Assembly (NCBI RefSeq): GCF_022919835.1
Contig: NZ_CP095074.1
Location: forward strand, 4,504,001-4,568,000
Direction: 5' to 3'
Length of the DNA stretch: 64,000 nt
Source of the DNA: Halobacillus shinanisalinarum
Lineage (GTDB): Bacteria; Bacillota; Bacilli; Bacillales; Halobacillaceae
A program made the position numbers and the translations under genes. Below the pieces are notes generated by a model. It did not search any database. It had not been told where the DNA came from and saw nothing but the letters and a program-made list of their open reading frames with translations. Position 1 is the first letter of the stretch, and each line of letters opens with the position of its first letter. This document shows, piece after piece, positions 12,084-64,000 of this stretch.

Positions 12084-13158
12084 GGATGGCACAGTATTCG
12101 TAGGAAAAGGATTTGGCAGTGATAGCGAAAGCTTTGGTGAAATTGTCTTCAATACAGGGATGACAGGGTACCAGGAGGTTATCTCGGATCCTTCTTACTG
12201 CGGACAAATTGTAACATTCACGTATCCGATGGTTGGCAATTATGGCATCAATAGGGATGATTTTGAAACCGTCAACCCAGCGATCCTAGGGGTCGTCGTT
12301 AAAGAGCATTGTGAACACCCTTCTAATTTTAGAAGTGAAGAGACGTTAGATGAATTTTTGCAGGCAAAAAGAATTCCTGGAATCAGCGGGGTAGATACGC
12401 GAAAATTAACGAAAATTATTCGCAAACATGGCACGATGAAAGCAATGATTACCTCCGTTGATCGCCCAGTAGAACAACTCGTCAGCATTATGAAAGAAAC
12501 TCCGCTTGCAACGGATCAGGTTAAACAAGTATCGACGGTGAAACCATATGTTGTGCCAGGACGCGGCTACCGGATCGTGCTGATCGACTTCGGAATGAAG
12601 CATGGGATTTTACGAGAATTTACGAAGAGAAGCTGTCACGTGACGGTCGTTCCTTACCATACAACTGCAGAAGAAATTGAGAGGCTCCGCCCTGATGGCA
12701 TCATGCTGTCAAACGGCCCGGGGGATCCAAAAGATGTACCTGAGGCGATTCAAACCGTACGCCAGTTAATGGGACGTGTTCCGGTCTTCGGGATTTGTTT
12801 AGGACACCAGTTGATTGCTTTGGCATCTGGGGCGGATACCGTGAAAATGAAGTTCGGCCATAGAGGTGGAAATCAACCAGTTAAGGATATCCGGACGAAC
12901 AAGACCGCGATTACTTCACAAAACCATGGCTATGCCGTTGACGAAGAATCACTGCAATCTACAAGTCTATCACTAACTCAAATCTCTTTAAATGATGGCA
13001 CGGTAGAAGGGCTTGAGCACAAGACACAGAATGTTTTCTCTGCACAGTACCATCCAGAGAGTTCACCAGGACCAGACGATACGGCCGCATTGTTTGACGA
13101 ATTTTTAACACGAATTGCTCAATCACAAAAAGAAACAAAGGAGGCTCTTCATGTCTAA
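12064..13158 (+). CDS. carA: Carbamoyl-phosphate synthase small subunit (glutaminase)
   Basis: Releases ammonia from glutamine and passes it to CarB. A 364-residue protein: N-terminal CPSase domain ([15 protein letters not shown]), then a class I glutamine amidotransferase with nucleophile C245 in VFGICLGHQ and the His/Glu of [10 protein letters not shown] (H330, E332). The ORF extends to TTG 12049, but GAGGAGG at 12051-12057 is the ribosome binding site for ATG 12064. It overlaps carB by eight bases. This copy in the pyr operon corresponds to B. subtilis pyrAA. Confidence 0.97.
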
Positions 13159-16100
13159 GCGAACAGATATTAAACGTATTCTAGTGATCGGTTCAGGTCC
13201 GATCATCATTGGGCAGGCAGCAGAGTTTGACTATTCTGGGACACAGGCATGCCAGGCCTTAAAAGAAGAAGGCTATGAAGTGATCTTAGCAAACTCAAAC
13301 CCGGCAACGATTATGACCGACCACACATTTGCGGATAAGGTGTACATGGAACCTCTCACACTTGAGTTTTTAACAAAAATTGTACGTAAAGAATCTCCAG
13401 ATGCTATTTTACCAACACTTGGCGGACAAACAGGCTTGAATTTAGCGGTAGAATTAAGCGAATCTGGTATCTTGGAACAAAATAAAGTAGAGCTGCTGGG
13501 CACCCCCTAGACGCGATTCAACGTGCAGAAGACCGGGAGAAGTTCCGTGATCTTATGCACAAATTAGAACAGCCTGTTCCTGAAAGTGACATCGTTAGTT
13601 CTGTGGATGGAGCCGTAAATTTTGCCAATAAGATCGGATACCCGGTCATCGTTCGTCCGGCTTATACAATGGGCGGAGCCGGCGGCGGGATGTGTGATAA
13701 CGAAGAACAGCTTCGAGACATCGCACGGAATGGTCTGGCCCAATCTCCTGTACATCAATGTTTAATTGAACGGAATATCGCTGGTTTTAAAGAAGTCGAA
13801 TATGAAGTGATGCGTGATGCGAATGACCAGGCTATTGTTGTCTGTAACATGGAAAACTTTGACCCTGTTGGGATTCATACAGGTGATTCGATCGTTGTTG
13901 CCCCTTCACAAACGTTAAGCGATCGTGAGTATCAAATGCTGCGAAATGCATCATTAGAAATCATCAGGGCGCTTGAAATTGAAGGAGGCTGTAATGTCCA
14001 GTTAGCATTAGACCCTGACAGCTTTCAGTACTATGTGATTGAAGTCAACCCTCGTGTCAGCCGTTCCTCGGCACTTGCTTCAAAAGCGACGGGCTATCCG
14101 ATTGCCAAGCTTGCGGCTAAGATCGCGATCGGCATGACGCTTGATGAAATCGAAAATCCGATTACAAAAACGACGTACGCTTGCTTTGAGCCAGCACTCG
14201 ACTATGTTGTAACGAAAATTCCACGTTGGCCTTTTGATAAGTTTGCCAAAGGAAATCGTAAGCTCGGTACACAAATGAAGGCAACAGGTGAAGTGATGGC
14301 GATTGGACGTACCATTGAGGAATCGTTGTTAAAAGGAATCCGCTCCTTAGAAGGCGAAACCGACGATTTATTTGTGGCATCGGTTGCTGAACTGTCACGC
14401 GAAGAGATGTTCAATCGACTGCGTCGGGCTGATGATGAACGAATTTTCATCTTGGCAGAAGCCTTAAGAAGAAAGGTGACGCTAGAAGAACTTCATGAGG
14501 CTACAGGGATTGATTACTTTTTCTTACACAAAATGCTGCACATCATTCAGCTTGAGCATGTCGTCAAAGAACAACCATGGGAGGCTGATGTCATCCGTGA
14601 GGTAAAAGAAACCGGGTTTTCTGACCGACAAATTGCAAGGCTGCTCGATACGACGATTGATGAAGTGATGAGCTTTAGAAAACAGCATCACATCTCTCCC
14701 GTGTACAAAATGGTCGATACGTGTGCAGGTGAGTTTGTCTCTGAAACGCCTTATTTTTACAGCAGCTATGAGGACGAGAATGAATCGGTGGTCACAGAGG
14801 CTAAAAAAGTGCTCGTGATTGGTTCAGGTCCGATTCGTATCGGCCAAGGGGTCGAATTTGATTACGCAACGGTCCACTCTGTGTTAGCTCTTAAAGAAAT
14901 GGGCTATGAGGCCATTATCATGAATAACAACCCTGAGACCGTATCGACAGACTTCAGCGTTTCTGACAAGCTCTACTTTGAGCCGTTGACGCTTGAGGAT
15001 GTCATGCATGTCATTGATCTCGAACAACCTGAAGGGGTCATCGTTCAATTCGGCGGACAAACAGCGATTAATTTAGTGGAAGGCCTTAGCCGCCAAGGTG
15101 TTGAGATTCTTGGCACAACGATGGATGCCATCAACCAAACCGAAGATCGTGACTTATTTGAACAATTGTTAACGAATCTTGATATTGCTAAACCGGGCGG
15201 AGAAAGTGTGACAAGTATGGAAGAAGCCGTGCAAGCCGCTAGCCACATCGGCTATCCCGTTGTCGTACGTCCTTCTTATGTCCTTGGCGGCCGGGCGATG
15301 GAGATCGTCTACTCCGAAGAAGAGTTATTGATGTACATGGAGGAAAATGTCCGCGTTCACAATGGCCATCCGATTCTTATCGATAAATATTTAACAGGCA
15401 TGGAAATTGAGGTTGACGCGATTACAGACGGCAAGGATGTTGTCATACCCGGGATCATGGAACATATCGAGCGGGCAGGCGTTCACTCAGGTGACTCGAT
15501 GGCAGTGTACCCGCCTCAGCGTCTATCCCAACGACTCGAACAACAGTGCATTGATGCTACCGTCAAAATCGCACGTGAACTGAACATGAAGGGATTAATC
15601 AACATTCAGTTCGTGATTTTTGATGAAACAGCTTATGTACTGGAAGTGAACCCACGGGCGAGCCGAACTGTTCCCTTCCTAAGTAAAATTACTGGAATTA
15701 CCATGGCCCAGTTGGCTACGAAAGCGATTATGGGGCAGACACTTGCTTCATTAGGTTATACGTCTGGAATTGCTGAGAAACCTGAAGGGGTTTATGTAAA
15801 AGTTCCTGTCTTTTCCTTTGAAAAGCTCCGCAGTGTAGATACGACGCTTGGGCCCGAAATGAAGTCGACAGGGGAAGTAATCGGTTACGATCAAAGCCTT
15901 GAGAAAGCCTTGTACAAAGGGATGACAGCGGCAGGGTTGAAAATACCGACAGAAGGATCTGTGTTATTAACGGTAGCCGATAAAGATAAACAGGAAATGA
16001 TTGAGATTGCAAGAACGTTTCATCAGCTTGGTTTCCACTTATACGCTACGGAAGGGACAGCACGAGCGATTGAGGAAGCAAGCTTACCAGTTGAAGCGGT

Positions 16101-16349
16101 TGGCAAGCTCGGTTCAAGCCAGCGGGATGTGGTCGATTTGATTCGCAGTGGTGATGTCCAATTTGTTGTAAACACCTTGAATAAGGGGAGACGCGCCCGT
16201 TCGGACGGGTTCCAAATTCGACGTGAAGCGGTTGAACATGGGATTGCCTCGTTGACAAGTCTTGATACGGCTAAAACGATTGTAGAGGTCATCGATGCGA
16301 TGACATTTACAGCTCGGACGATTGCGAAAAAAGAAGCGGTGTTTGCCTA

Positions 16350-16350
<1 letters not shown>
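13151..16350 (+). CDS. carB: Carbamoyl-phosphate synthase large subunit, split by a frameshift
   Basis: Makes carbamoyl phosphate from bicarbonate, ammonia and two ATP. It has the two-fold repeat of the family: each half starts with an IGSGPI motif ([18 protein letters not shown] and [18 protein letters not shown]) and carries an ATP-grasp domain, followed by a C-terminal MGS-like allosteric domain. The frame breaks at CCCCC 13503-13507, where LLGTP meets a TAG; one more C restores the sequence into [12 protein letters not shown]. The corrected product is about 1066 residues, a normal length. Since all other pyr genes are intact, a base-calling error is more likely than a dead gene. ATG 13151 follows AAAGGAGG. 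Confidence 0.95.
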
Positions 16351-54205: not shown

Positions 54206-54533
54206 AAACTGAATCTCCTTCCGACACAAACCTCTTTACCGTAGCATAATATTGTTTTTAAAAGATAACAAGTTTCTGACTGCTCCTATTAAGTTCCCTC
54301 ATAAAATGAGAAGATGCCCCTTTTTTTGTCAAATTGGTGAGCCGAACAGATTCATTGCTGATAATACTACAGTACCTGACATGAAATAATTCTGTTTCAA
54401 GAAGGGTACAATGATCATAATTGAAGTATGCCAATAGGAAGAAACAGTCTAAGATAGAAAAGAACTAATTATATTTTTTAAAAAAGCTGAAATGAGTTTC
54501 TATTTATTTCGGCTTACTAAGGGTGGTCTTATT
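54206..54533. other. Divergent intergenic region, no gene seen
   Basis: Lies between the minus-strand ZIP gene and the plus-strand RNase H-like gene. I find no ORF, no repeat and no clear promoter; AT-rich. Confidence 0.4.
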
Positions 54534-55199
54534 ATGAAGGTCAGAATCGAATTAACATATAAAACACCAAAAGGTACAAATACAACATTCAGTTCTGATG
54601 ATATGCATGCAGGAAAAGCCATCTTAATCGCTGAAGATCTAGAGAGCATAGGGCGCACTAAAAATGTAACATTCATCGACAGCCTTGAGAGTACGTGGAC
54701 GTTGAAGGAATTAAAGAAATATATGAAGGGAATTCAAACCGAACCACACAATGTAACCGTTTATTTTGATGGTGGTTTTGATCTAGACACAACAAATTCA
54801 GGTTTAGGTTGTGCCATTTATTATGAACAAAATGGAAAATCATTTCGGCTGCGCAAAAACGCCTTAGTTGAAGAACTTGATACAAATAACGAGGCGGAGT
54901 ATGCTGCCCTTCATCTCGGATTACAAGAATTAGAGCTTTTAAAGGTCCATCACTTGCCTGTTACATTTGTCGGTGATTCCCAGGTTGTTATCAACCAATT
55001 AAATGGAGAATGGCCGTGTTTGGAAGAAGAATTGTCAAAATGGGCTGACAGAGTTGAAAGTAAATTGAAGCAGCTAGGCATTCATCCAGATTATGAACTT
55101 ATTTCACGAAAAGGGAATCGGGAAGCGGACAGACTAGCATCACAAGCCCTAAAAGAAATTGAAATAACGAGTACAATAGAGACAAATCGTGAAGAATAA
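54534..55199 (+). CDS. RNase HI-like protein
   Basis: A 221-residue protein: N-terminal 65-residue part of unknown fold (MKVRIELTYKTPKGTNTTF), then an RNase H domain with all four acidic residues in place: VYFDGGFD, NNEAEYAALHLGL, FVGDSQVVINQL and NREADRLAS. It resembles the bacillar reverse-transcriptase-like/YpeP-YpdQ group. ATG 54534 after GGGTGGT; the earlier start at 54492 lacks a site. It probably cleaves RNA in hybrids; activity untested. Confidence 0.85.
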   Translation: MKVRIELTYKTPKGTNTTFSSDDMHAGKAILIAEDLESIGRTKNVTFIDSLESTWTLKELKKYMKGIQTEPHNVTVYFDGGFDLDTTNSGLGCAIYYEQNGKSFRLRKNALVEELDTNNEAEYAALHLGLQELELLKVHHLPVTFVGDSQVVINQLNGEWPCLEEELSKWADRVESKLKQLGIHPDYELISRKGNREADRLASQALKEIEITSTIETNREE

Positions 55200-55308: not shown

Positions 55309-55337
55309 TTGCCAATTTTTGAAAGTGGTGATATACT
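55309..55337 (+). promoter_or_regulatory. Sigma-A promoter of the valine operon
   Basis: TTGCCA at 55309-55314, 17-base spacer, TATACT at 55332-55337. The RNA would begin about 20 bases before the riboswitch. Confidence 0.75.
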
Positions 55338-55363
55338 CTACATGAAACTAAATACGATGTAAA

Positions 55364-55674
55364 AACAGGTGCGGATAAAGAACTTATTTATCTGCTTAAA
55401 AGGGAAGTTCGGTTAGATTCCGACGCTGTCCCGCAACTGTATTTGGGAGCGATTCGAAAAAACCACTGTTTTCATGGAACATGGAAATGGGAAGGTTCGA
55501 GGAGCGATGACCTTAAGCCAGGAGACCTGCCTGTTTTTAGCAAACATCAATACCTACGAGGATAGGGGGTGTTAAGGGCGACAAAAGGAAGCATGCTTTT
55601 TCAATGTGGATAAGCATGTCTATTTTAGTAATCTTTCGTGACTTAACAACTTCTATCGGGAAGTTGTTTTTTTA
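55364..55674 (+). promoter_or_regulatory. Cobalamin (B12) riboswitch with terminator
   Basis: Aptamer 55364-55545: aaaacaggtgc, then aaaagggaagttcggt, ttccgacgctgtcccgcaac with tgt, and the B12-box agccaggagacctgcct. All are hallmark words in the right order. A terminator aacaacttc / gaagttgttt plus T-run follows at 55645-55674, 45 bases before the first gene. With cobalamin bound it should shut the operon off. Confidence 0.95.
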
Positions 55675-55718
55675 TTGCCGTTTTTTCAGCCGCATGATAT
55701 TCAGATGGGAGTGTAAGA

Positions 55719-57428
55719 ATGGAAGATCTAAAAGTTCATTCGAGGAATTTTATGCCCTATGAAATGGGAAAGGGTGTGTTTACACCCGAAGATTTCATGG
55801 ACGAGGAAGATTTGATATCGAAAACAACAGAAATGTTTGTGAAACAAGAAATTGCCCCTCAATTGGAGTCTATTGAAAAGCATGATTATAAAGTTGCCTG
55901 CCAGCTGTTTGAAAAAGCTGGAGAACTAGGTCTGCTTGGTATTGAAGTGCCGGAGTCCTATGGCGGTCTTTCTTTAAATAAAAAACTCTCTGGACTTGTG
56001 GCGGAAAAGATGGGGTATGGGGGCTCATTCAGCGTTTCGTTTAACATTCATGTTGGAGTAGGCACTTTGCCCTACATTTATTTTGGTACAGAAGAACAAA
56101 AACAGAAGTACTTACCCAAATTAGCTGCTGGGGAATGGATTGGCGCCTATGCCCTGACGGAGCCGGGTGCTGGTTCGGATGCTTTAAATGCACGTACCAG
56201 TGCGATATGGAAGGATGAAGAATCAGCCTGGGTGTTGAATGGAGAAAAGCAATGGATTACAAATGCTCATGTGGCGAATGTCTATGTTGTCTTCGCTAAA
56301 ACCAAGGAAGGAATGACCGCCTTTATCGTCGAACGATCGTTTGATGGCGTATCCATTGGGTTGGAAGAAAAGAAGATGGGAATCAAAGGGTCTTCCACAG
56401 CAACTTTGATTCTTGAGGATGTATCCGTGCCTAAAGAAAATGTATTGGGGGACGTAGGGAAAGGGCATCGGATTGCCTTAAACATTTTAAACATGGCCCG
56501 CCTAAAGCTTGCCTTTTCAAATATTGGATCCGCAAAACAATCGCTTGAGTTGACTACTCAATACTCAAAAGAACGGAAACAGTTTAATCGATCGTTACTT
56601 GACTTTACGATGATTCAAGAGAAGATTGCCAACATGGCCGTTTCTATTTACGGAGCTGAGAGTGCTGCCTATCGAACAGCTGGTTTTTTAGATGACGCCA
56701 TGGAAGACCGCGACGAGAATAATGATAGTAACGGGAAAAATTCAGGGTATGCCATGGAATGTGCCATGAACAAAGTATATAGCTCAGAAGTGTTAGACAA
56801 CATTGTTGACGAAGCTGTACAAATTCACGGTGGTTATGGATATATGGAAGAATATCAAGTCGAGCGGCTTTATCGTGATGCCAGGATCAGCCGGATATTT
56901 GAAGGAACAAATGAGATTAATCGTCTAACGATTTCAAAAATCTTAATTAAAAAATTTAATTCATCACAAGTGACTACGATGGACACAGCAAATGAGATCC
57001 ATAAGGACAAGAATCGACAGTACATTCAACTGTCTAAGCACTTGTTAACTCGATCTTTGAAAGCGCTTACGGAAACGTGCTTAAAAATGGAAGATGAACA
57101 AGAATATATGCGTTTATTAGCGGATATGGTAAGTGACCTCTATGTAATGGAATCTTCGTTTTTACGTACGGAGAAGGCTATTGAAAAAAATGGGCGGGAC
57201 CAGGAGCAGATGAAGGTAAACGTGACAGATGTGTTATGTGAAGAGGGGTATCGTCGTGTGGAAAACGCCGCTCTGTCCATCATTTCAGGGGGCGTTTCAG
57301 ATGACCATGACCGGGAGAGATGGATCCATGAGATTCGCCATCTCGAAGTTCCTCTTTATGAAAATCTCTTTGTGAAAAAACGTGCGATTGCAAAACATAT
57401 CACAAGTCGCACGCGCTATATGATTTAA
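55719..57428 (+). CDS. Acyl-CoA dehydrogenase (probable isobutyryl-CoA step)
   Basis: A 569-residue FAD enzyme, longer than the usual 380: a standard dehydrogenase core with ALTEPGAGSDALNARTSA, WITNAH, and HGGYGYMEEYQVERLYRDA and RIFEGTNEINRLTI (catalytic Glu), then about 150 extra residues, helical and charged. The extension is like FadE-type proteins of Bacillus. In this operon the natural job is isobutyryl-CoA to methacrylyl-CoA. Fatty acyl-CoA is the alternative substrate. GGGAGTG before the ATG. Confidence 0.9.
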   Translation: MEDLKVHSRNFMPYEMGKGVFTPEDFMDEEDLISKTTEMFVKQEIAPQLESIEKHDYKVACQLFEKAGELGLLGIEVPESYGGLSLNKKLSGLVAEKMGYGGSFSVSFNIHVGVGTLPYIYFGTEEQKQKYLPKLAAGEWIGAYALTEPGAGSDALNARTSAIWKDEESAWVLNGEKQWITNAHVANVYVVFAKTKEGMTAFIVERSFDGVSIGLEEKKMGIKGSSTATLILEDVSVPKENVLGDVGKGHRIALNILNMARLKLAFSNIGSAKQSLELTTQYSKERKQFNRSLLDFTMIQEKIANMAVSIYGAESAAYRTAGFLDDAMEDRDENNDSNGKNSGYAMECAMNKVYSSEVLDNIVDEAVQIHGGYGYMEEYQVERLYRDARISRIFEGTNEINRLTISKILIKKFNSSQVTTMDTANEIHKDKNRQYIQLSKHLLTRSLKALTETCLKMEDEQEYMRLLADMVSDLYVMESSFLRTEKAIEKNGRDQEQMKVNVTDVLCEEGYRRVENAALSIISGGVSDDHDRERWIHEIRHLEVPLYENLFVKKRAIAKHITSRTRYMI

Positions 57429-57442
57429 ATGGAGGTATTCAC

Positions 57443-58330
57443 ATGAAAAAGATAGGTTTTATCGGATTAGGAAATATGGGTCTTCCGATGTCGAAAAATT
57501 TACTAGCTGCTAATTTTATCGTTTACGGTCTCGATTTAAATAAAAAAGCTGAAGAAGCTCTTCAAGAATTCGGTGGATTGACAGGGGTATCTATTTCTGA
57601 AATGACGGGCGTTTGCGACGTGATCATCACGAGCTTACCATCCTCGGATGCGGTCGAAGAGATTTTTTTAGGAGAAGAGGGACTGATTAAACATAGTCAG
57701 CCTGGAATGATCTTGATGGATACAAGTACGGTGGCTCCTGAGATGAATCTGAAAGTTGAAAAAGCAGTGAGAAACAAAGGGATTGAATATCTAGCTGCTC
57801 CTGTCAGTGGAGGAGTGATTGGAGCTGTAAACCGCACGCTTACCTTCATGGTCGGAGGTTCTGAAGAAACGTATCAGAAAGCTTTGCCAATCATGAACGT
57901 ATTAGGTGAGAAGATTTTTCATGTCAATGAAAAGATCGATAGTGGCACAGCTACGAAGCTGATCAACAATTTACTCATCGGGTTCTATACCGCTGGTGTA
58001 AGCGAAGCGCTTAATTTAGCAAAGCAGAGCAATATAGATTTGGAAAATTTATATGAAATCTTGAATGTCAGTTATGCGAAAAGCCGGATATTTGAACGCA
58101 ACTATAAAAGCTTTATCGCCAATGATGACTATGAACCTGGTTTCTCTTTAAAACTATTGAGGAAAGATTTAGGGTTTGCTTTAGACTTGGCTGAAAAACA
58201 TCACTTAGATTTACCGATTAGTAAGAACTTGTTTGATATGTACGAAGAGGCGGAGGAAAGTGGCCTTGGGGAGAAAGACATGTCCGTGGTTTTCCAAAAG
58301 CTTAGCGAGCAGTCTACATCTAAATTATAG
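57443..58330 (+). CDS. mmsB: 3-Hydroxyisobutyrate dehydrogenase
   Basis: Oxidises 3-hydroxyisobutyrate to methylmalonate semialdehyde with NAD+. A 295-residue beta-hydroxyacid dehydrogenase: [18 protein letters not shown], the [10 protein letters not shown] block, substrate motif [12 protein letters not shown], and the Lys of KLINNLL. GGAGG before the ATG, 15 bases after the acyl-CoA dehydrogenase. Other family substrates (tartronate semialdehyde) are possible, but the operon argues for 3-hydroxyisobutyrate. Confidence 0.9.
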
Positions 58331-58350
58331 GAAAAAGGGGAGAAGCACAT

Positions 58351-59807
58351 ATGATTACGACGAACGTAGAAAAAATGAAGAATCATATTGATGGACAGTG
58401 GGTGGCGTCTACAGGAGAAGAAATGGAAGAAATTCCGAATCCAGCAACCGGTAAGGTGGTTGCGTATGTTCCGTTATCAACAGAACAAGATGTCAAACTC
58501 GCCGTAGAAGCGGCTCATAGGGCATTCCCTTCTTGGTCAAAAGTACCTGTTCCGCAAAGATCCCGTTACTTATTTGAATACCTTCAGTTATTAAACGAAC
58601 ATAAAGAAGAACTTGCTCAAATTATTACCATGGAGAGTGGAAAAACGTTACAGGACGCTCGCGGGGAGGTTCAACGCGGAATTGAAGTGGTCGAGCTTGC
58701 CACATCTACTCCAAATTTAATGATGGGAGATGCACTTCCTAGTATTGCCGAGGGCATTGATGGTTCCATTTGGCGCTATCCACTTGGAGTGGTTGCGGGT
58801 ATTACACCGTTTAACTTCCCAATGATGGTTCCGCTATGGATGTTCCCCCTTGCGATTGCTTGCGGGAATACATTTGTCTTCAAAGCGTCGGAGCGCACGC
58901 CTATTTTAGCCGGGAAGTTAGTGGATCTTTTTTATCAAGCAGGTTTTCCAAAAGGTGTGTTGAATCTAGTACATGGTGGAAAAGAAGTGGTCAATAGTGT
59001 CCTTGACCATCCTGACATTGAGGCGGTTTCTTTTGTCGGCTCAGAACCAGTGGCCAAGCATGTCTACCAAACAGGAACAGCGAATGGAAAACGAGTTCAA
59101 GCTCTTGCAGGAGCTAAAAACCACGCACTTGTCATGTCGGATTGTCAAATGGAGAAAACTGTTCAGGGGGTTATTGGGGCTGCCTTTGGAAGTAGTGGTG
59201 AACGCTGTATGGCATGTTCCGTGGTAGCCGTCGTGGATGATATCGCTGATGAATTCATCGAGACCTTGGTCTCAGAAACTCGGAAACTAAAAGTGGGAGC
59301 GGGAACTTCGGAGGAAAACTTCGTCGGACCTTTGATCCGTGATGCCCACAAAGAGAGAGTACTAGGATATATTAATCAAGGAGTCGAAGAAGGGGCTGCC
59401 TTGATGGTCGATGGTCGAAATGTAGAAGTCGATGAAAATGGATATTACGTAGGCGCGACGGTTTTCGATCGTGTCACCCCGAGATGAAGATCTGGCAGGA
59501 TGAAATATTTGCTCCTGTTTTAAGTGTGGTAAGAGTAAGCAACCTGGAAGAGGGTATTGATCTTACCAATCACTCCAGGTTCGCGAATGGGGCTGTTATC
59601 TATACATCAAGTGGTAAAAACGCTCAAATCTTCCGTGAAAATATTGACGCAGGCATGGTCGGTGTTAATGTAAATGTCCCGGCTCCGATGGCGTTCTTCT
59701 CGTTTGCAGGAAACAAAGCTTCCTTTTATGGAGATCTTGGAACGAACGGAAAAGATGGGGTGCAATTTTATACGCGGAAAAAAGTAGTGACCGAACGATG
59801 GTTTTGA
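58351..59807 (+). CDS. mmsA: Methylmalonate-semialdehyde dehydrogenase (CoA-acylating), split by a frameshift
   Basis: Turns methylmalonate semialdehyde into propionyl-CoA. Aldehyde dehydrogenase fold with [19 protein letters not shown] and catalytic Cys in [13 protein letters not shown]. The frame breaks at CCCC 59477-59480 (VTPR stop); one more C gives [17 protein letters not shown] and joins the C-terminal 107 codons, which include [11 protein letters not shown]. The corrected length of about 485 residues is that of the family. Like carB and the rluD-type gene, a missing C in a C-run. GGGGAGAA before the ATG. Confidence 0.93.
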
Positions 59808-59876
59808 TCGTTTTAGAGTTCCCATTCAATCTAGCTCATTTTTGGCACGGGACATACAAAAAGGAGGTTGTAAAAA

Positions 59877-60662
59877 GTGGACTACCAATATGCGAACGTG
59901 ATTAAAGAAAATCATGTGACAACGGTCGAAGTGAATAACGCTCCAGCTAATGCCTTATCATCGGCTGTTATTGGAGAATTACGCAATCTATTTCAAACAC
60001 TGGCAAACGACGATGAAACACGTGTTATTATTCTTACAGGTGCCGGTCGATTTTTTGTAGCCGGTGCGGATATCAAGGAATTTGTCTCTGTCATGGAAGA
60101 AGAGGAGAAAGCCTTGGCCATGTCTGAAGCGGGTCAGGAGCTTTGTAATGAGATTGAAGCGATGAGAAAACCGGTGATTGCCAGTATCAACGGGCCGGCA
60201 CTTGGGGGAGGACTCGAGCTAGCGATGAGCTGTCACTTTAGGATTGCTTCAGACGCGGCCACACTCGGATTACCAGAATTAAAGCTAGGCCTTATTCCAT
60301 CTTTCGGGGGCACCCAGCGTCTTAGCAAAATCACAGGCCCAGCAACAGCTTTGAACCTCATTTTGTCCAGTAAGCAGCTAAATTCGGAGGAGGTGGCTGA
60401 TCTCGGGATTGTTCAATTTGTCGTTCAACAGGAAGAACTACTACCAACCACAGTCGCCCTGGCTCAGTCCCTGGTAGAGGGCAAAAGCATGACCAGTGTA
60501 ACGCGTGCAGTTGAATGTATCATGCAGGGGCATACCGAAAAGATGGCAGATGGATTGGAAAGAGAACGGAAAAAGTTTGCTGAGTTATTTTTAACGAAAG
60601 ATGCTAAGGAAGGCGTTCAAGCCTTTATTGAAAAACGAAAGCCAAATTTCACACATTCCTAG
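59877..60662 (+). CDS. Enoyl-CoA hydratase
   Basis: A 261-residue crotonase: GRFFVAGADIKEF (oxyanion hole), GPALGGGLELAMSCHFRIA, and catalytic LPELKLGLIPSFGGTQRL with a Glu at the first catalytic position. Hydrates methacrylyl-CoA to 3-hydroxyisobutyryl-CoA by context; other enoyl-CoAs are possible. GTG 59877 with AAAGGAGG upstream. A 69-base gap separates it from mmsA. Confidence 0.92.
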   Translation: MDYQYANVIKENHVTTVEVNNAPANALSSAVIGELRNLFQTLANDDETRVIILTGAGRFFVAGADIKEFVSVMEEEEKALAMSEAGQELCNEIEAMRKPVIASINGPALGGGLELAMSCHFRIASDAATLGLPELKLGLIPSFGGTQRLSKITGPATALNLILSSKQLNSEEVADLGIVQFVVQQEELLPTTVALAQSLVEGKSMTSVTRAVECIMQGHTEKMADGLERERKKFAELFLTKDAKEGVQAFIEKRKPNFTHS

Positions 60663-60672
60663 GAGGGGAAAA

Positions 60673-61740
60673 ATGACAAACGTAGTATTGACTTCTGTTA
60701 ATGAAAATGGCGTAGCGTCCCTCATACTAAACAGACCTGAAGCTATTAATTCACTGTCTACAGATATGCTGGAGGTTATCGGGGAAAAATTGAAAGAGTG
60801 GGAACATGATGATCAGGTTCGTCTCGTTGTCCTTAAAGGGGAAGGTTCCAAAGGCTTTTGTGCGGGCGGGGATATTAAGACCCTTTATGGGGCACAAAAT
60901 AGCTCCGAAGCTTTAGAGAAGGCCGAGCGTTTTTTTGAAAAAGAATATGTAGTTGACCAGCTCATTTATCAGTACTCCAAACCGATCATTGCTTGCTTGG
61001 ATGGAGTCGTCATGGGTGGAGGCGTCGGGCTCACGTACGGAGCATCTCATAGAATTGTGACTGAGCGCACTAAATGGGCCATGCCCGAAATGAATATTGG
61101 CTTTTTTCCAGATGTAGGAGCGGCTTATTTCTTAAATCAAGCTCCTGGTCATATGGCTCGTTACTTAGCCTTAACCGCATCGGTCATAAAAGCTCCTGAT
61201 GTTTTGTATATCGGTGGAGCGGATGCCTATATGAAAAGTGAGAAGATGGACGTATTCTTATCTGAACTAGAAGGGATCAATTGGCATAATAAAGATGTGG
61301 ATGCTGCTCTTAATGAGCTGACCGATAAGTACACTCGTTCTCCTGAAAAAGAAGGACAGCTTCATCTCATACAAGAAGATGTCGATCAGCATTTTTCCTA
61401 CAGGACTGTGGAAGGAATCGTCCATTCGCTAGACAACGCATCGAGCGATTTTGCCAAGGAAGCGAAAGAAATGCTCTTGTCCAAGTCTCCATCCTCTTTG
61501 AAAGTTACCTTAAAACAGCTCATGGATGGGGAAAATAAAACAATAGACGAATGCTTTCATACAGATCTCATTCTTGCTAAAAACTTTATGCGTCATGAAG
61601 ATTTCTTTGAGGGTGTACGTTCTGTTCTCATTGATAAAGACCGAAATCCTCAATACAAGTATCCGCACTTACAAGACTTTTCGGATGAAGAGGTTCAGAA
61701 GTTTTTTAGTCCAGGCGGAAAGATTTCAACATTTTCGTAA
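60673..61740 (+). CDS. 3-Hydroxyisobutyryl-CoA hydrolase
   Basis: A 355-residue crotonase-fold thioesterase: KGFCAGGDIKTLYGAQ, DGVVMGGGVGLTYGASH and MPEMNIGFFPDVGAAYFLNQ, the block typical of HIBCH, with a longer C-terminal domain. Releases free 3-hydroxyisobutyrate for mmsB. AGGAGGGG directly before ATG 60673; the open frame starting at 60601 lies inside the previous gene. Last gene of the operon. Confidence 0.93.
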   Translation: MTNVVLTSVNENGVASLILNRPEAINSLSTDMLEVIGEKLKEWEHDDQVRLVVLKGEGSKGFCAGGDIKTLYGAQNSSEALEKAERFFEKEYVVDQLIYQYSKPIIACLDGVVMGGGVGLTYGASHRIVTERTKWAMPEMNIGFFPDVGAAYFLNQAPGHMARYLALTASVIKAPDVLYIGGADAYMKSEKMDVFLSELEGINWHNKDVDAALNELTDKYTRSPEKEGQLHLIQEDVDQHFSYRTVEGIVHSLDNASSDFAKEAKEMLLSKSPSSLKVTLKQLMDGENKTIDECFHTDLILAKNFMRHEDFFEGVRSVLIDKDRNPQYKYPHLQDFSDEEVQKFFSPGGKISTFS

Positions 61741-61763
61741 TAGATTGAGGTTCATAAATGTAC

Positions 61764-61805
61764 AAAAGCCCCATTCTTTGCATGATGCAGAGAATGGGGC
61801 TTTTG
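61764..61805. terminator. Two-way terminator between the valine operon and prpB
   Basis: About 20-pair stem starting aaaagccccattct, with mirrored agaatggggctttt, one G-U and a tiny loop, between convergent genes. Confidence 0.9.
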
Positions 61806-61814
61806 CAGTTCGGT

Positions 61815-62735
61815 TTACTTTCTCTCCTTACCGATTTCAGGCAGCTCGGTTTCAGCAATCTTTTGATCCAGTTGTTCATAATCATAGTAGCGAATCTTTT
61901 CGTACAACTCTCCGCGTGTTTGCATATCATCAAGCATATCTTCCTGAGTACCTTTTTCAAAAATCTCAGTGAAAACACGTTCATAGGCTTTAGCTGCTAC
62001 ACGTAAGGAAGTGACCGGGTAGATCACCATACCGAAACCAAATGACTCGAATTCTTCGGCAGTAAAATAGGGTGTTTTTCCGAATTCGGTCATGTTGGCT
62101 AATAAAGGTGCATCAATCGCTTGCGAAGCCCTGTGAAAGTCTTCCTCACTCGTCAGCGCTTCTGGGAAAATGGCGTCGGCTCCTGCCTTGACATATAAAT
62201 TAGCACGTTCAATGGCCTTGTCGATGCCTTCCACTGACTTCGCATCTGTTCTTGCGACGATAACTAGGGTAGGGGACACTTCTTTAATCGTCTTGATTTT
62301 TTGTACCATCTCATCAGGGTCGATGAGTTTTTTACCGTTTAAATGCCCGCATTTTTTAGGGAGATGCTGATCCTCAATCTGAACGGCAGCTACTCCTGCT
62401 TCTACCATCTCTCTCGCGGTTCGTGCCACATTTAATACACCACCGTAACCCGTATCAATATCGACTAAAAGAGGAAGGTCAGTAGCACGCACCAGTTCGG
62501 TTGCTTTGTCTGCTACCTCATTGGAGTAAATCATCCCTAAGTCGGGCAGAGCTCGACTGGCTGTGTAAGCAGCACCTGAAAGATATAATGTCTGAAAACC
62601 GACGTCTTTTGCAATTTTAGCGGACATTCCGTCATGGGCACCGGGGATTCTTAGTATTTCATTTTTCTTAATAAGGCGTTTGAATTGTTCAGCGCGCTCG
62701 TTCTGTGTTGATTTTGGTTCCACGATCCAAGTCAT
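61815..62735 (-). CDS. prpB: Methylisocitrate lyase
   Basis: Splits 2-methylisocitrate to pyruvate and succinate, the last step of the methylcitrate cycle. A 306-residue isocitrate-lyase-type TIM barrel with GAHDGMSAKIAKDVGF, metal block DIDTGYGG and the catalytic KKCGHLNGKKL. AAGGAGGCATTGT precedes the ATG. It lies 30 bases downstream of prpD (B. subtilis yqiQ after mmgE). Together they handle the propionyl-CoA made by the opposing operon. Confidence 0.95.
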   Translation of the reverse strand: MTWIVEPKSTQNERAEQFKRLIKKNEILRIPGAHDGMSAKIAKDVGFQTLYLSGAAYTASRALPDLGMIYSNEVADKATELVRATDLPLLVDIDTGYGGVLNVARTAREMVEAGVAAVQIEDQHLPKKCGHLNGKKLIDPDEMVQKIKTIKEVSPTLVIVARTDAKSVEGIDKAIERANLYVKAGADAIFPEALTSEEDFHRASQAIDAPLLANMTEFGKTPYFTAEEFESFGFGMVIYPVTSLRVAAKAYERVFTEIFEKGTQEDMLDDMQTRGELYEKIRYYDYEQLDQKIAETELPEIGKERK

Positions 62736-62765
62736 TACAATGCCTCCTTGGCTAAATATACATAA

Positions 62766-64000
62766 TTAAATTCTAAACAGATTCATAAATTCATGAACAG
62801 GTTTGAGTGAAAGTTCCTTTTGATTCTCACACAGCGTATAAATATCGTTGACTTGACGGGCAGGGAAATGCGTCTTCAAGTTGTCGTGGAACTTGTTCAA
62901 TAGAAGCGGAATTCCTTCTTCACGACGGCGACGGTGTCCGATTGGGTATTCAATCGCCACTTGCTCCGTTTTTGTTCCATCATTGAAGAAAACTTGTACG
63001 GCATTAGCGATTGACCGTCTGCCAGCATCAAGATAGTCCTTGCTGTATTGTTCGTTTTCTACTGTTTCCATCATATCTCTTAATCGATCAATTTGAGGGT
63101 TGCGGGCGATTTCATCTTCATAATGGTCCGCTGTCAACGAACCATAAATTAAGCCTATCGCTGTAATATACTGCAAGCAATGGTCGCGGTCTGCCGGATT
63201 ATGAAGAGGGCCTTTTTTATCAATGATTCGTATGGCCGATTCATGGGTCGTTATTTCTATTTTTTCAATCTCATCCAATCGATCAGCCACCTGATCACGC
63301 AATTGAATCGCTGCCTCGGCTGCCGTTTGTGCATGGAACTCGGCTGGATAAGAAATCTTAAATAAGATGTTTTCCATAACGTAAGAGTCAAATGGGCGGG
63401 CAATCGTCAATTCCTTCCCATCAAACAGTACATCCTGGAAGCCCCAGCCTGGTGCAGATAACGGGGTTTTGTATCCCATTTCCCCCTTCATCGTCATGAG
63501 GGCTAGGCGAACTCCGCGGCTTGTCGCATCTCCAGCAGCCCAAGATTTTCTTGAACCTGTGTTTGGTGCGTGGCGATACGTTCGAAGGCTGGAATTATCA
63601 ATCCACGCTTGGGAAACCGCGTTGACAACGTCTTCTTTGCTTCCCCCTAACATCGCCGTAACAACAGCGGTTGTCGCTACTTTTACATACAGAACATGAT
63701 CTAAGCCCTGGCGGTTCAAACTGTTTTCCAAAGCAAGAATGCCTTGTATTTCGTGCGCTTTTACGATGTACTCCAAAACAGTGTCCATCGTAAGAGGCAC
63801 CTTGGCTTCGGCGATACGCTCACGGCTTAGGTAGTCGGCCACAGCTAAAATACCTCCGAGGTTATCAGAAGGGTGACCCCATTCGGCTGCAAGCCACGTA
63901 TCATTGTAATCCAGCCAGCGAATCATACATCCAATATTGAACGCCGCATGGACGGGATCTAGTTTATACTGTGTCCCAGGAACTTGAACGCCGTTTGGAA
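62766..64000 (-). CDS. prpD: 2-Methylcitrate dehydratase, 5' end outside window
   Basis: Dehydrates 2-methylcitrate. MmgE/PrpD family: [20 protein letters not shown] upstream of the first Met, then [21 protein letters not shown] and [20 protein letters not shown]. The frame stays open to the window end, so the ATG at 63926 is internal and only about 410 of 480 residues are seen. prpC would be expected further upstream, outside the window. Confidence 0.94.

Follow-up and report, generated by a model that had tools for sequence, protein, structure and literature searches.

A cobalamin riboswitch before a five-gene valine/isobutyrate operon in Halobacillus shinanisalinarum: predicted B12 repression of a B12-independent acyl-CoA bypass

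Cobalamin riboswitches that control the B12-independent isozymes metE and nrdAB are established (PMC3766115, PMC9600662, PMC4342826). The system described here consists of a cobalamin riboswitch and the five-gene operon behind it, acd-mmsB-mmsA-ech-hibch, which covers the distal part of valine and isobutyrate catabolism, in a 64,000-nucleotide stretch of the Halobacillus shinanisalinarum genome (the window; C1:4504001-4568000 of 4.887 Mb), together with the adjacent methylcitrate operon prpC-prpD-prpB (prpCDB). It would resemble the metE and nrdAB cases in that B12 represses B12-free alternatives in genomes also holding the B12 enzyme, but there an isozyme replaces an enzyme, whereas here pathways of five and three genes would replace a mutase reaction. 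With such a gene content the alternative is not a single isozyme of the same reaction, and the system works like the metE/nrd class without being its strict isozyme case.

The valine-gene target was partly foreshadowed in Streptomyces griseus, where a cobalamin riboswitch was predicted in a premature transcript before SGR_RS05925 (methylmalonate-semialdehyde dehydrogenase), termination of the transcript varied with growth phase, and the downstream genes were those of valine degradation; the authors knew of no prior cobalamin study of valine enzymes (PMC8914203). That system shares with ours a riboswitch and premature termination before valine-to-propionyl-CoA genes, and differs in belonging to another phylum, in being known from one genome, in having neither prpCDB nor an acd-first operon, and in that the accessible text states no link to a mutase (PMC8914203). 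In Mycobacterium tuberculosis the methylcitrate route is likewise switched off by B12, which shuts prpDC, but there prpDC is governed by the transcription factor PrpR and the riboswitch sits on metE, whereas prpC has its own riboswitch here (PMC10924821, PMC12713380, PMC4428469). The propionate shunt of Caenorhabditis elegans is also on when B12 is short and uses mostly the same enzyme types; it differs in its transcriptional control, its animal host, its substrate (propionate, not isobutyryl-CoA) and its fourth enzyme (PMC4951191). In the accessible parts of seven further papers there was no link of a cobalamin riboswitch to prpCDB or to valine genes (PMC11071462, PMC2667541, PMC4809877, PMC2864759, PMC11575231, PMC11494915, PMC8388888), and our search, with supplements, regulon databases and subscription papers outside it, found no report of a riboswitch on prpCDB, of the joint operon or of the co-occurrence with mutases described below. 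The riboswitch itself is conserved and well formed, and its target set is unusual and coherent.

We propose, with a probability of roughly 0.74, that with B12 available this transcription-terminating riboswitch represses a bypass through which branched- and odd-chain acyl-CoA is metabolized without B12. The cell would probably use the B12-free routes only when the B12-dependent enzymes cannot work.

The first-pass annotation had placed a cobalamin riboswitch in front of the operon. The aptamer matched RF00174 with 116.1 bits (gathering score 31.5; E 4.6e-29) over model positions 1-189 of 189, which rules out a chance match, and the span noted earlier, 55364-55674, corresponds roughly to the aptamer plus the expression platform. 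The promoter and terminator noted earlier were also recovered (Table 1), with three promoter-like sites over both strands against 0.8 expected from shuffles in the consensus scan, and one terminator-like site against 0.4. Between the leader and acd there was no open reading frame (ORF) of at least 90 amino acids, in agreement with the claim that no gene intervenes. The leader (55350-55675) folded with a z-score of -3.55, and 0 of 100 shuffles were as stable.

Conservation of the leader was followed across 84,980 genomes, one for each species, with the best 80 loci out of at least 593 stretches retained. With 12 leaders as the basis of a covariance model, 31 matches at E <=0.001 were obtained in 84 loci; four were weak, and some lay on riboswitches of other genes. 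Riboswitch positions were confirmed by Rfam in the loci given to it. Between the aptamer and the first gene, the leaders have in common the hairpin CCTACGNGGATAGG as well as antiterminator and terminator elements. The four pairs of the linker hairpin were paired in every cell and nearly invariant over 31 leaders. The terminator stem AACAACTT was found in 21 of 23 leaders, with a longer variant in both Oceanobacillus leaders, and 98.0% of the cells of terminator and hairpin were paired, mostly invariantly. For the antiterminator, 89.8% of the cells were paired (84.6% in shuffles, 0 of 500 as high), pairing was 33.1-42.0% after sliding by 1-3 columns, and the covariation score was 0.241 against 0.176 in shuffles (0 of 500 as high). 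The antiterminator and the terminator share positions 55645-55648 and are therefore mutually exclusive, so that an RF00174 expression platform with alternative structures is conserved over 31 leaders. A kissing-loop pairing was looked for in the leader by eye, and none is claimed. Terminator-type cobalamin riboswitches of such anatomy are off with ligand. The leader is thus predicted from its structure to bind B12 and to switch off with it, in line with the earlier suggestion that the operon is shut when B12 is plentiful.

Table 1. Features of the riboswitch leader, the valine/isobutyrate operon and the convergent methylcitrate genes (window coordinates).
Feature	Position	Strand	Evidence
Promoter-like site TTGCCA-17-TATACT, TG before the second hexamer (extended -10), putative	55309..55337	+	Consensus scan
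Cobalamin riboswitch aptamer, RF00174	55350..55548	+	Covariance model; same match in genome scan
Conserved linker hairpin CCTACGAGGATAGG, 3' of aptamer	55553..55566	+	31 leaders
Antiterminator 5' arm	55570..55581	+	Pairs with 55636-55648
Antiterminator 3' arm, overlaps terminator stem	55636..55648	+	Leader alignment
Intrinsic terminator, stem-loop 55645-55668 and T run	55645..55673	+	Terminator scan, leader alignment
acd, FadE-type acyl-CoA dehydrogenase, presumed isobutyryl-CoA dehydrogenase	55719..57428	+	NF058590, 671.4 bits, above cut-off
mmsB, 3-hydroxyisobutyrate dehydrogenase	57443..58330	+	Solved-protein match 5je8
mmsA first piece, methylmalonate-semialdehyde dehydrogenase	58351..59487	+	TIGR01722, 467.8 bits, above cut-off
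mmsA second piece, other frame	59484..59807	+	TIGR01722, 136.3 bits, model positions 372-477
ech, enoyl-CoA hydratase, presumed methacrylyl-CoA hydratase	59877..60662	+	PRK07658, 299.0 bits, under cut-off 313
hibch, 3-hydroxyisobutyryl-CoA hydrolase	60673..61740	+	PRK05617, 433.8 bits, above cut-off
prpB, methylisocitrate lyase, last gene of prpC-prpD-prpB	61815..62735	-	TIGR02317, 418.8 bits
prpD, 2-methylcitrate dehydratase, runs out of window	62766..64000	-	TIGR02330, above cut-off

The five genes run in one direction 3' of the leader with intergenic gaps of 14, 20, 69 and 10 nucleotides, and each is preceded by a plausible ribosome-binding site; ORF calls were mechanical throughout. Their best solved relatives were 3owa for acd, the 3-hydroxyisobutyrate dehydrogenase 5je8 for mmsB (396.8 bits), 1t90 for mmsA and 3bpt for hibch. 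NCBIfam gave no model above its cut-off for mmsB, the TIGR01692 score being 211.1 bits. The start of hibch was picked by its ribosome-binding site, and its PRK05617 score was obtained from the longer ORF start at 60601. From their context, isobutyryl-CoA is the presumed substrate of acd and methacrylyl-CoA that of ech. All five enzyme types of the distal valine pathway, from isobutyryl-CoA to propionyl-CoA, are thus present in one operon. The earlier description of a complete operon stood for the gene content and failed for mmsA, which lies in two frames in this assembly; its observation that none of the five enzymes uses B12 agrees with the known biochemistry of the five families.

The downstream neighbor, prpC-prpD-prpB, is convergent to the valine operon and is headed by a second cobalamin riboswitch on the minus strand (C1:4569897-4570096), so that both adjacent operons are riboswitch-led; prpC and its riboswitch lie beyond the window end (C1:4568000). 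The acd and prpC leaders of this genome are 85% identical to each other. Recent duplication of one from the other was considered and dropped, the acd leader being equally like the Sutcliffiella or the Brevibacillus leader.

The genome also encodes two proteins of the methylmalonyl-CoA mutase (MCM) family. The first (locus L100) comprises an 806-amino-acid piece, which scored 1103.7 bits against the fused isobutyryl-CoA mutase 4xc6 and 235.3 bits against MCM, and a second piece of 254 amino acids with B12-binding and MeaB-type domains. The Phe and Gln motif residues, as we understand their meaning, were present. This protein is identified by its sequence as the isobutyryl-CoA mutase IcmF, not MCM. 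The second (locus L101) is an MCM-type large subunit that adjoins a B12-binding and glyoxalase-fold (epimerase-like) protein and a carboxyltransferase. Its top solved relative was 2-hydroxyisobutyryl-CoA mutase (592.6 bits; human MCM 523.5), and at the carboxylate-binding position, which we take to decide MCM specificity, it aligned an Arg as in the solved MCMs, where 2-hydroxyisobutyryl-CoA mutase has Gln. It is therefore read as MCM. As in other cases of a riboswitch on a B12-free alternative, the genome thus holds the B12-dependent counterparts, IcmF and the MCM-type enzyme.

With B12 present, both leaders would terminate transcription and both operons would be shut. Isobutyryl-CoA derived from valine or isobutyrate would then be isomerized by IcmF to butyryl-CoA, which enters beta-oxidation, and propionyl-CoA would be converted to succinyl-CoA by the carboxylase, the epimerase and MCM. 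With B12 absent, IcmF and MCM would both stop, and the unliganded leaders would form the antiterminator and be read through. The acd-mmsB-mmsA-ech-hibch enzymes would oxidize isobutyryl-CoA to propionyl-CoA, and PrpCDB would burn the propionyl-CoA through methylcitrate. The idea in the first-pass annotation that propionyl-CoA is made only while the methylcitrate route operates pointed in the right direction, and was incomplete in missing the IcmF and MCM alternatives, the riboswitch on prpCDB and the shared or divergent riboswitches of relatives.

A riboswitch that guards a B12-free bypass would be expected to persist only in genomes that have the B12-dependent enzyme, and this expectation was compared with the distribution of the mutases. 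For the acd unit, IcmF was present in 21/21 riboswitch-positive and 0/9 riboswitch-negative genomes (Fisher 7.0e-8; the genomes are related, so this and the other Fisher values overstate independence, which weighs against our reading). These 30 are distinct genomes of established mutase content; those that occurred in both the order sample and the named set (six pairs) were counted once, and a further Oceanobacillus genome with a riboswitch on acd (G432) was excluded. In three genomes the assignment is doubtful (G093, G095, G269), with acd 1.6-2.6 kb behind prpB or prpD and a regulator-like gene between them in the two that were read; without these the counts were 18/18 and 0/9. For the prp unit, 61 of 348 genomes of the order had PrpD above the cut-off, and the upstream DNA was examined in all 61. 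The 11 riboswitch-positive genomes, which span seven family codes, all have both MCM and IcmF. Among the 49 genomes with prpC beside prpD (12 loci without adjacent prpC excluded), MCM occurred in 11/11 riboswitch-positive and 2/38 riboswitch-negative genomes (Fisher 2.7e-9). None of the nine genomes with IcmF and no MCM had a riboswitch on prpCDB, though each has at least one cobalamin riboswitch elsewhere; RF00174 occurred somewhere in 47 of 59 sampled prpD genomes. This pattern does not fit a riboswitch that is present simply as the genome uses B12, and that explanation was rejected. By these counts the riboswitch follows the matching mutase, on acd with IcmF and on prpCDB with MCM.

The enzymes of the operon would also suit a bacterial propionate shunt, in which propionyl-CoA is converted via acrylyl-CoA, 3-hydroxypropionyl-CoA, 3-hydroxypropionate and malonate semialdehyde to acetyl-CoA, so that the five genes would bypass MCM and not IcmF. 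This rival is a serious one because the enzymes are mostly of the same types as C. elegans acdh-1, ech-6, hach-1, hphd-1 and alh-8, which are B12-repressed and whose human homologues also serve valine breakdown (PMC4951191). In relatives, moreover, prpCDB, the other outlet for propionyl-CoA, stands in the same operon. The two readings differ in the mutase that the acd riboswitch should accompany, and it fits IcmF better than MCM (19/21 riboswitch-positive and 1/9 riboswitch-negative genomes for MCM), a difference made by three genomes only. Two Oceanobacillus genomes with IcmF but not MCM, O. polygoni (G094) and O. profundus (G098), keep the riboswitch on acd and have none on prpCDB, and Lysinibacillus alkalisoli (G091), with MCM and without IcmF, has none on acd. 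We regard the propionate shunt as rather unlikely, and a bypass of IcmF by the acd operon as the preferred reading.

Among 24 genomes of the genus Oceanobacillus, in which the genes behind all 50 riboswitches were inspected, acd stood behind one in G094, G098 and G432 and prpC in G436. In the group of loci L025-L027, which we take to be the B. licheniformis group and in which no mutases were found, there was no intact riboswitch before acd. One of its members, B. swezeyi (G088), has a degenerate riboswitch before acd (L027:262-421; 42.4 bits in the covariance model of the leaders) with core parts gone and no such adenosylcobalamin (AdoCbl) mutases. The genome was counted as riboswitch-negative, since the remnant does not reach the Rfam gathering score; the remnant is apparently an RNA switch decaying after the loss of its reason.

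The comparison with related genomes, as suggested earlier, showed that relatives put prpCDB and the acd genes behind one riboswitch or behind two divergent ones. The order riboswitch-prpC-prpD-prpB-acd-mmsB-mmsA-ech-hibch was found in Brevibacillus fortis and Gottfriedia luciferensis, and a joint operon that lacks mmsBA in Sutcliffiella halmapala and in seven Lysinibacillus loci. In Siminovitchia terrae and Bacillus sp. HF117 the order is riboswitch-prpC-acd-mmsB-mmsA-ech-hibch, with prpD-prpB elsewhere behind another riboswitch and, in HF117, a 196-amino-acid ORF between (L104, L105). Halobacillus karajensis and G040 have two divergent riboswitches, one for each half, and two Oceanobacillus genomes have riboswitch-acd-mmsB(-mmsA). 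When the 348 genomes of the order were scanned for a strict motif that joins B12 box, linker and terminator, nine of them gave ten matches; nine of these matches precede prpC and the remaining one precedes the acd of the window. The reversed control motif matched in 0 of 348.

The heading of both prpCDB and acd by one riboswitch in several genera would also be expected if the switch mainly saved resources by matching propionyl-CoA production and disposal to the methylcitrate capacity, with the IcmF link incidental, which is near the idea of the first-pass annotation. We consider this quite improbable, as two Oceanobacillus genomes carry the riboswitch on acd-mmsBA and not on prpCDB, and the riboswitch on acd tracks IcmF. 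That the riboswitch is a remnant or is out of place, having earlier belonged to a gene for B12 transport or synthesis, is more improbable still, to the point of being hardly credible. Many cobalamin riboswitches do control such genes (PMC3766115), but in the loci read about 150-450 nucleotides, the terminator included, separate the aptamer from the start of prpC or acd, too short a stretch for a transport gene. Aptamer and platform are, moreover, conserved between genera and show covariation. The suggestion that a B12-transport gene had been lost from this spot was rejected on the same distance. The B12-repressed bypass remains our preferred reading.

Several observations weigh against this reading. 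In the leader, antiterminator pairs in which both sides had changed numbered 4, not unusual beside 3.2 in shuffles (209 of 500), and the leader structures were drawn from the same sequences that scored them, which favors them. In the genome itself, icmF is frame-broken in the assembly, as is mmsA, with ORFs of 378 and 107 amino acids overlapping by 4 nucleotides beside a C run. In relatives, the operons of Sutcliffiella and the seven Lysinibacillus loci are without mmsBA, and in G014 and Pontibacillus litoralis a riboswitch-led prpCDB has hibch alone beside it. A sigma-54 activator gene lies between prpB and acd in Sporosarcina, as does a similar-looking 455-amino-acid ORF in Bacillus sp. REN10, and acd may form a separate unit in both. 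In the co-occurrence, MCM was found in 11/50 riboswitch-negative genomes when all 61 prpD genomes were taken with no filter for prpC linkage (Fisher 1.7e-6). L. alkalisoli has MCM and no riboswitch on prpCDB either, and G251 and G406 have MCM and IcmF with no riboswitch on prpCDB.

The frame breaks are likelier to be assembly indels, since several genes of this genome are split into two ORFs in the same manner: carB (window 13115-16350), icmF and a MeaB-type gene (L100), and perhaps a transporter gene (L008). In relatives mmsA is intact, for example in L017, L020, L023 and L036. Both mmsA and icmF are presumed to be functional.

The proposed control would extend the reach of cobalamin riboswitches beyond the swapping of isozymes, to a choice among whole carbon routes, with a single RNA element tying the catabolism of valine, isobutyrate and propionate to B12 status. 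The proposal parallels the B12-repressed mycobacterial methylcitrate genes and the worm propionate shunt, with a different sensor, and offers a possible explanation for the S. griseus valine-gene riboswitch, which was noted there without one. Bacteria of the S. griseus type presumably have isobutyryl-CoA mutase, which would fit. The comparative rule that the riboswitch follows the matching mutase may also help to name the function of other riboswitch-led genes.

The genome carries seven cobalamin riboswitches. In addition to the two described above, five stand before metE (by reading), a transporter of the periplasmic-binding-protein type (PF01497), the large subunit of ribonucleotide reductase, a DUF4430 lipoprotein with an ECF transporter component, and a thioesterase of the 4HBT family. 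The last (C1:1103849-1104034) lies directly before a short gene like 4HBT acyl-CoA thioesterases (L004:893-1366), and a riboswitch before such a gene was found in 6 of the 24 Oceanobacillus genomes by reading of the translations. Two of these proteins were searched and scored 53-64 bits against the YciA model, below its cut-off of 162. A wider cobalamin-sensing regulon of the Bacillales can be imagined that would redirect the entire metabolism of short and branched acyl-CoA, in which each AdoCbl mutase is paired with a riboswitch-repressed multi-step bypass, the thioesterase relieves the acyl-CoA load, and the riboswitch is kept or lost with the mutase; we give it an even chance. If it is true, riboswitch placement would predict which B12-dependent reaction a gene set replaces.

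In four of the 24 Oceanobacillus genomes (L201, L204, L214, L217) a riboswitch stands before a gene for an iron-containing alcohol dehydrogenase, one of which was scanned against NCBIfam; this riboswitch perhaps belongs to a B12-dependent diol or ethanolamine cluster. Seven Lysinibacillus genomes have 12-14 cobalamin riboswitches each, far above the 0-10 of the remaining genomes counted alongside them.

A sigma-54 activator with a CBS domain was identified by Pfam beside the acd operon at L102:4921-6693 and L019:14630-16387, and similar-looking ORFs were seen by reading at L034:15588-16955 and L038:16229-17986. Such an activator may act alongside the riboswitch or in its place. A strict scan for sigma-54 promoters before acd found nothing in 21 loci, with gene starts placed mechanically. 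In several MCM-positive genomes (seven loci) prpD lies away from prpC, behind a run of genes that, guessed from the gene sizes, may encode a tripartite tricarboxylate transporter, perhaps for the uptake of C6-C7 tricarboxylates.

Upstream of the leader, the gene at 54492-55199 matched an RNase HI-like model. A full-length hydrolase of the hibch type was found in 5 of 81 relatives including this genome, and in 0 of 10 other genomes of the genus; prpD was absent from the three of these ten that belong to the order sample. The two leaders of this genome are 81-85% identical to those of Sutcliffiella, Gottfriedia and Brevibacillus, and 75-80% to the Halobacillus type. Because of these absences and leader identities, it is possible that window positions 55309-64000 and the adjoining C1 region were gained horizontally.

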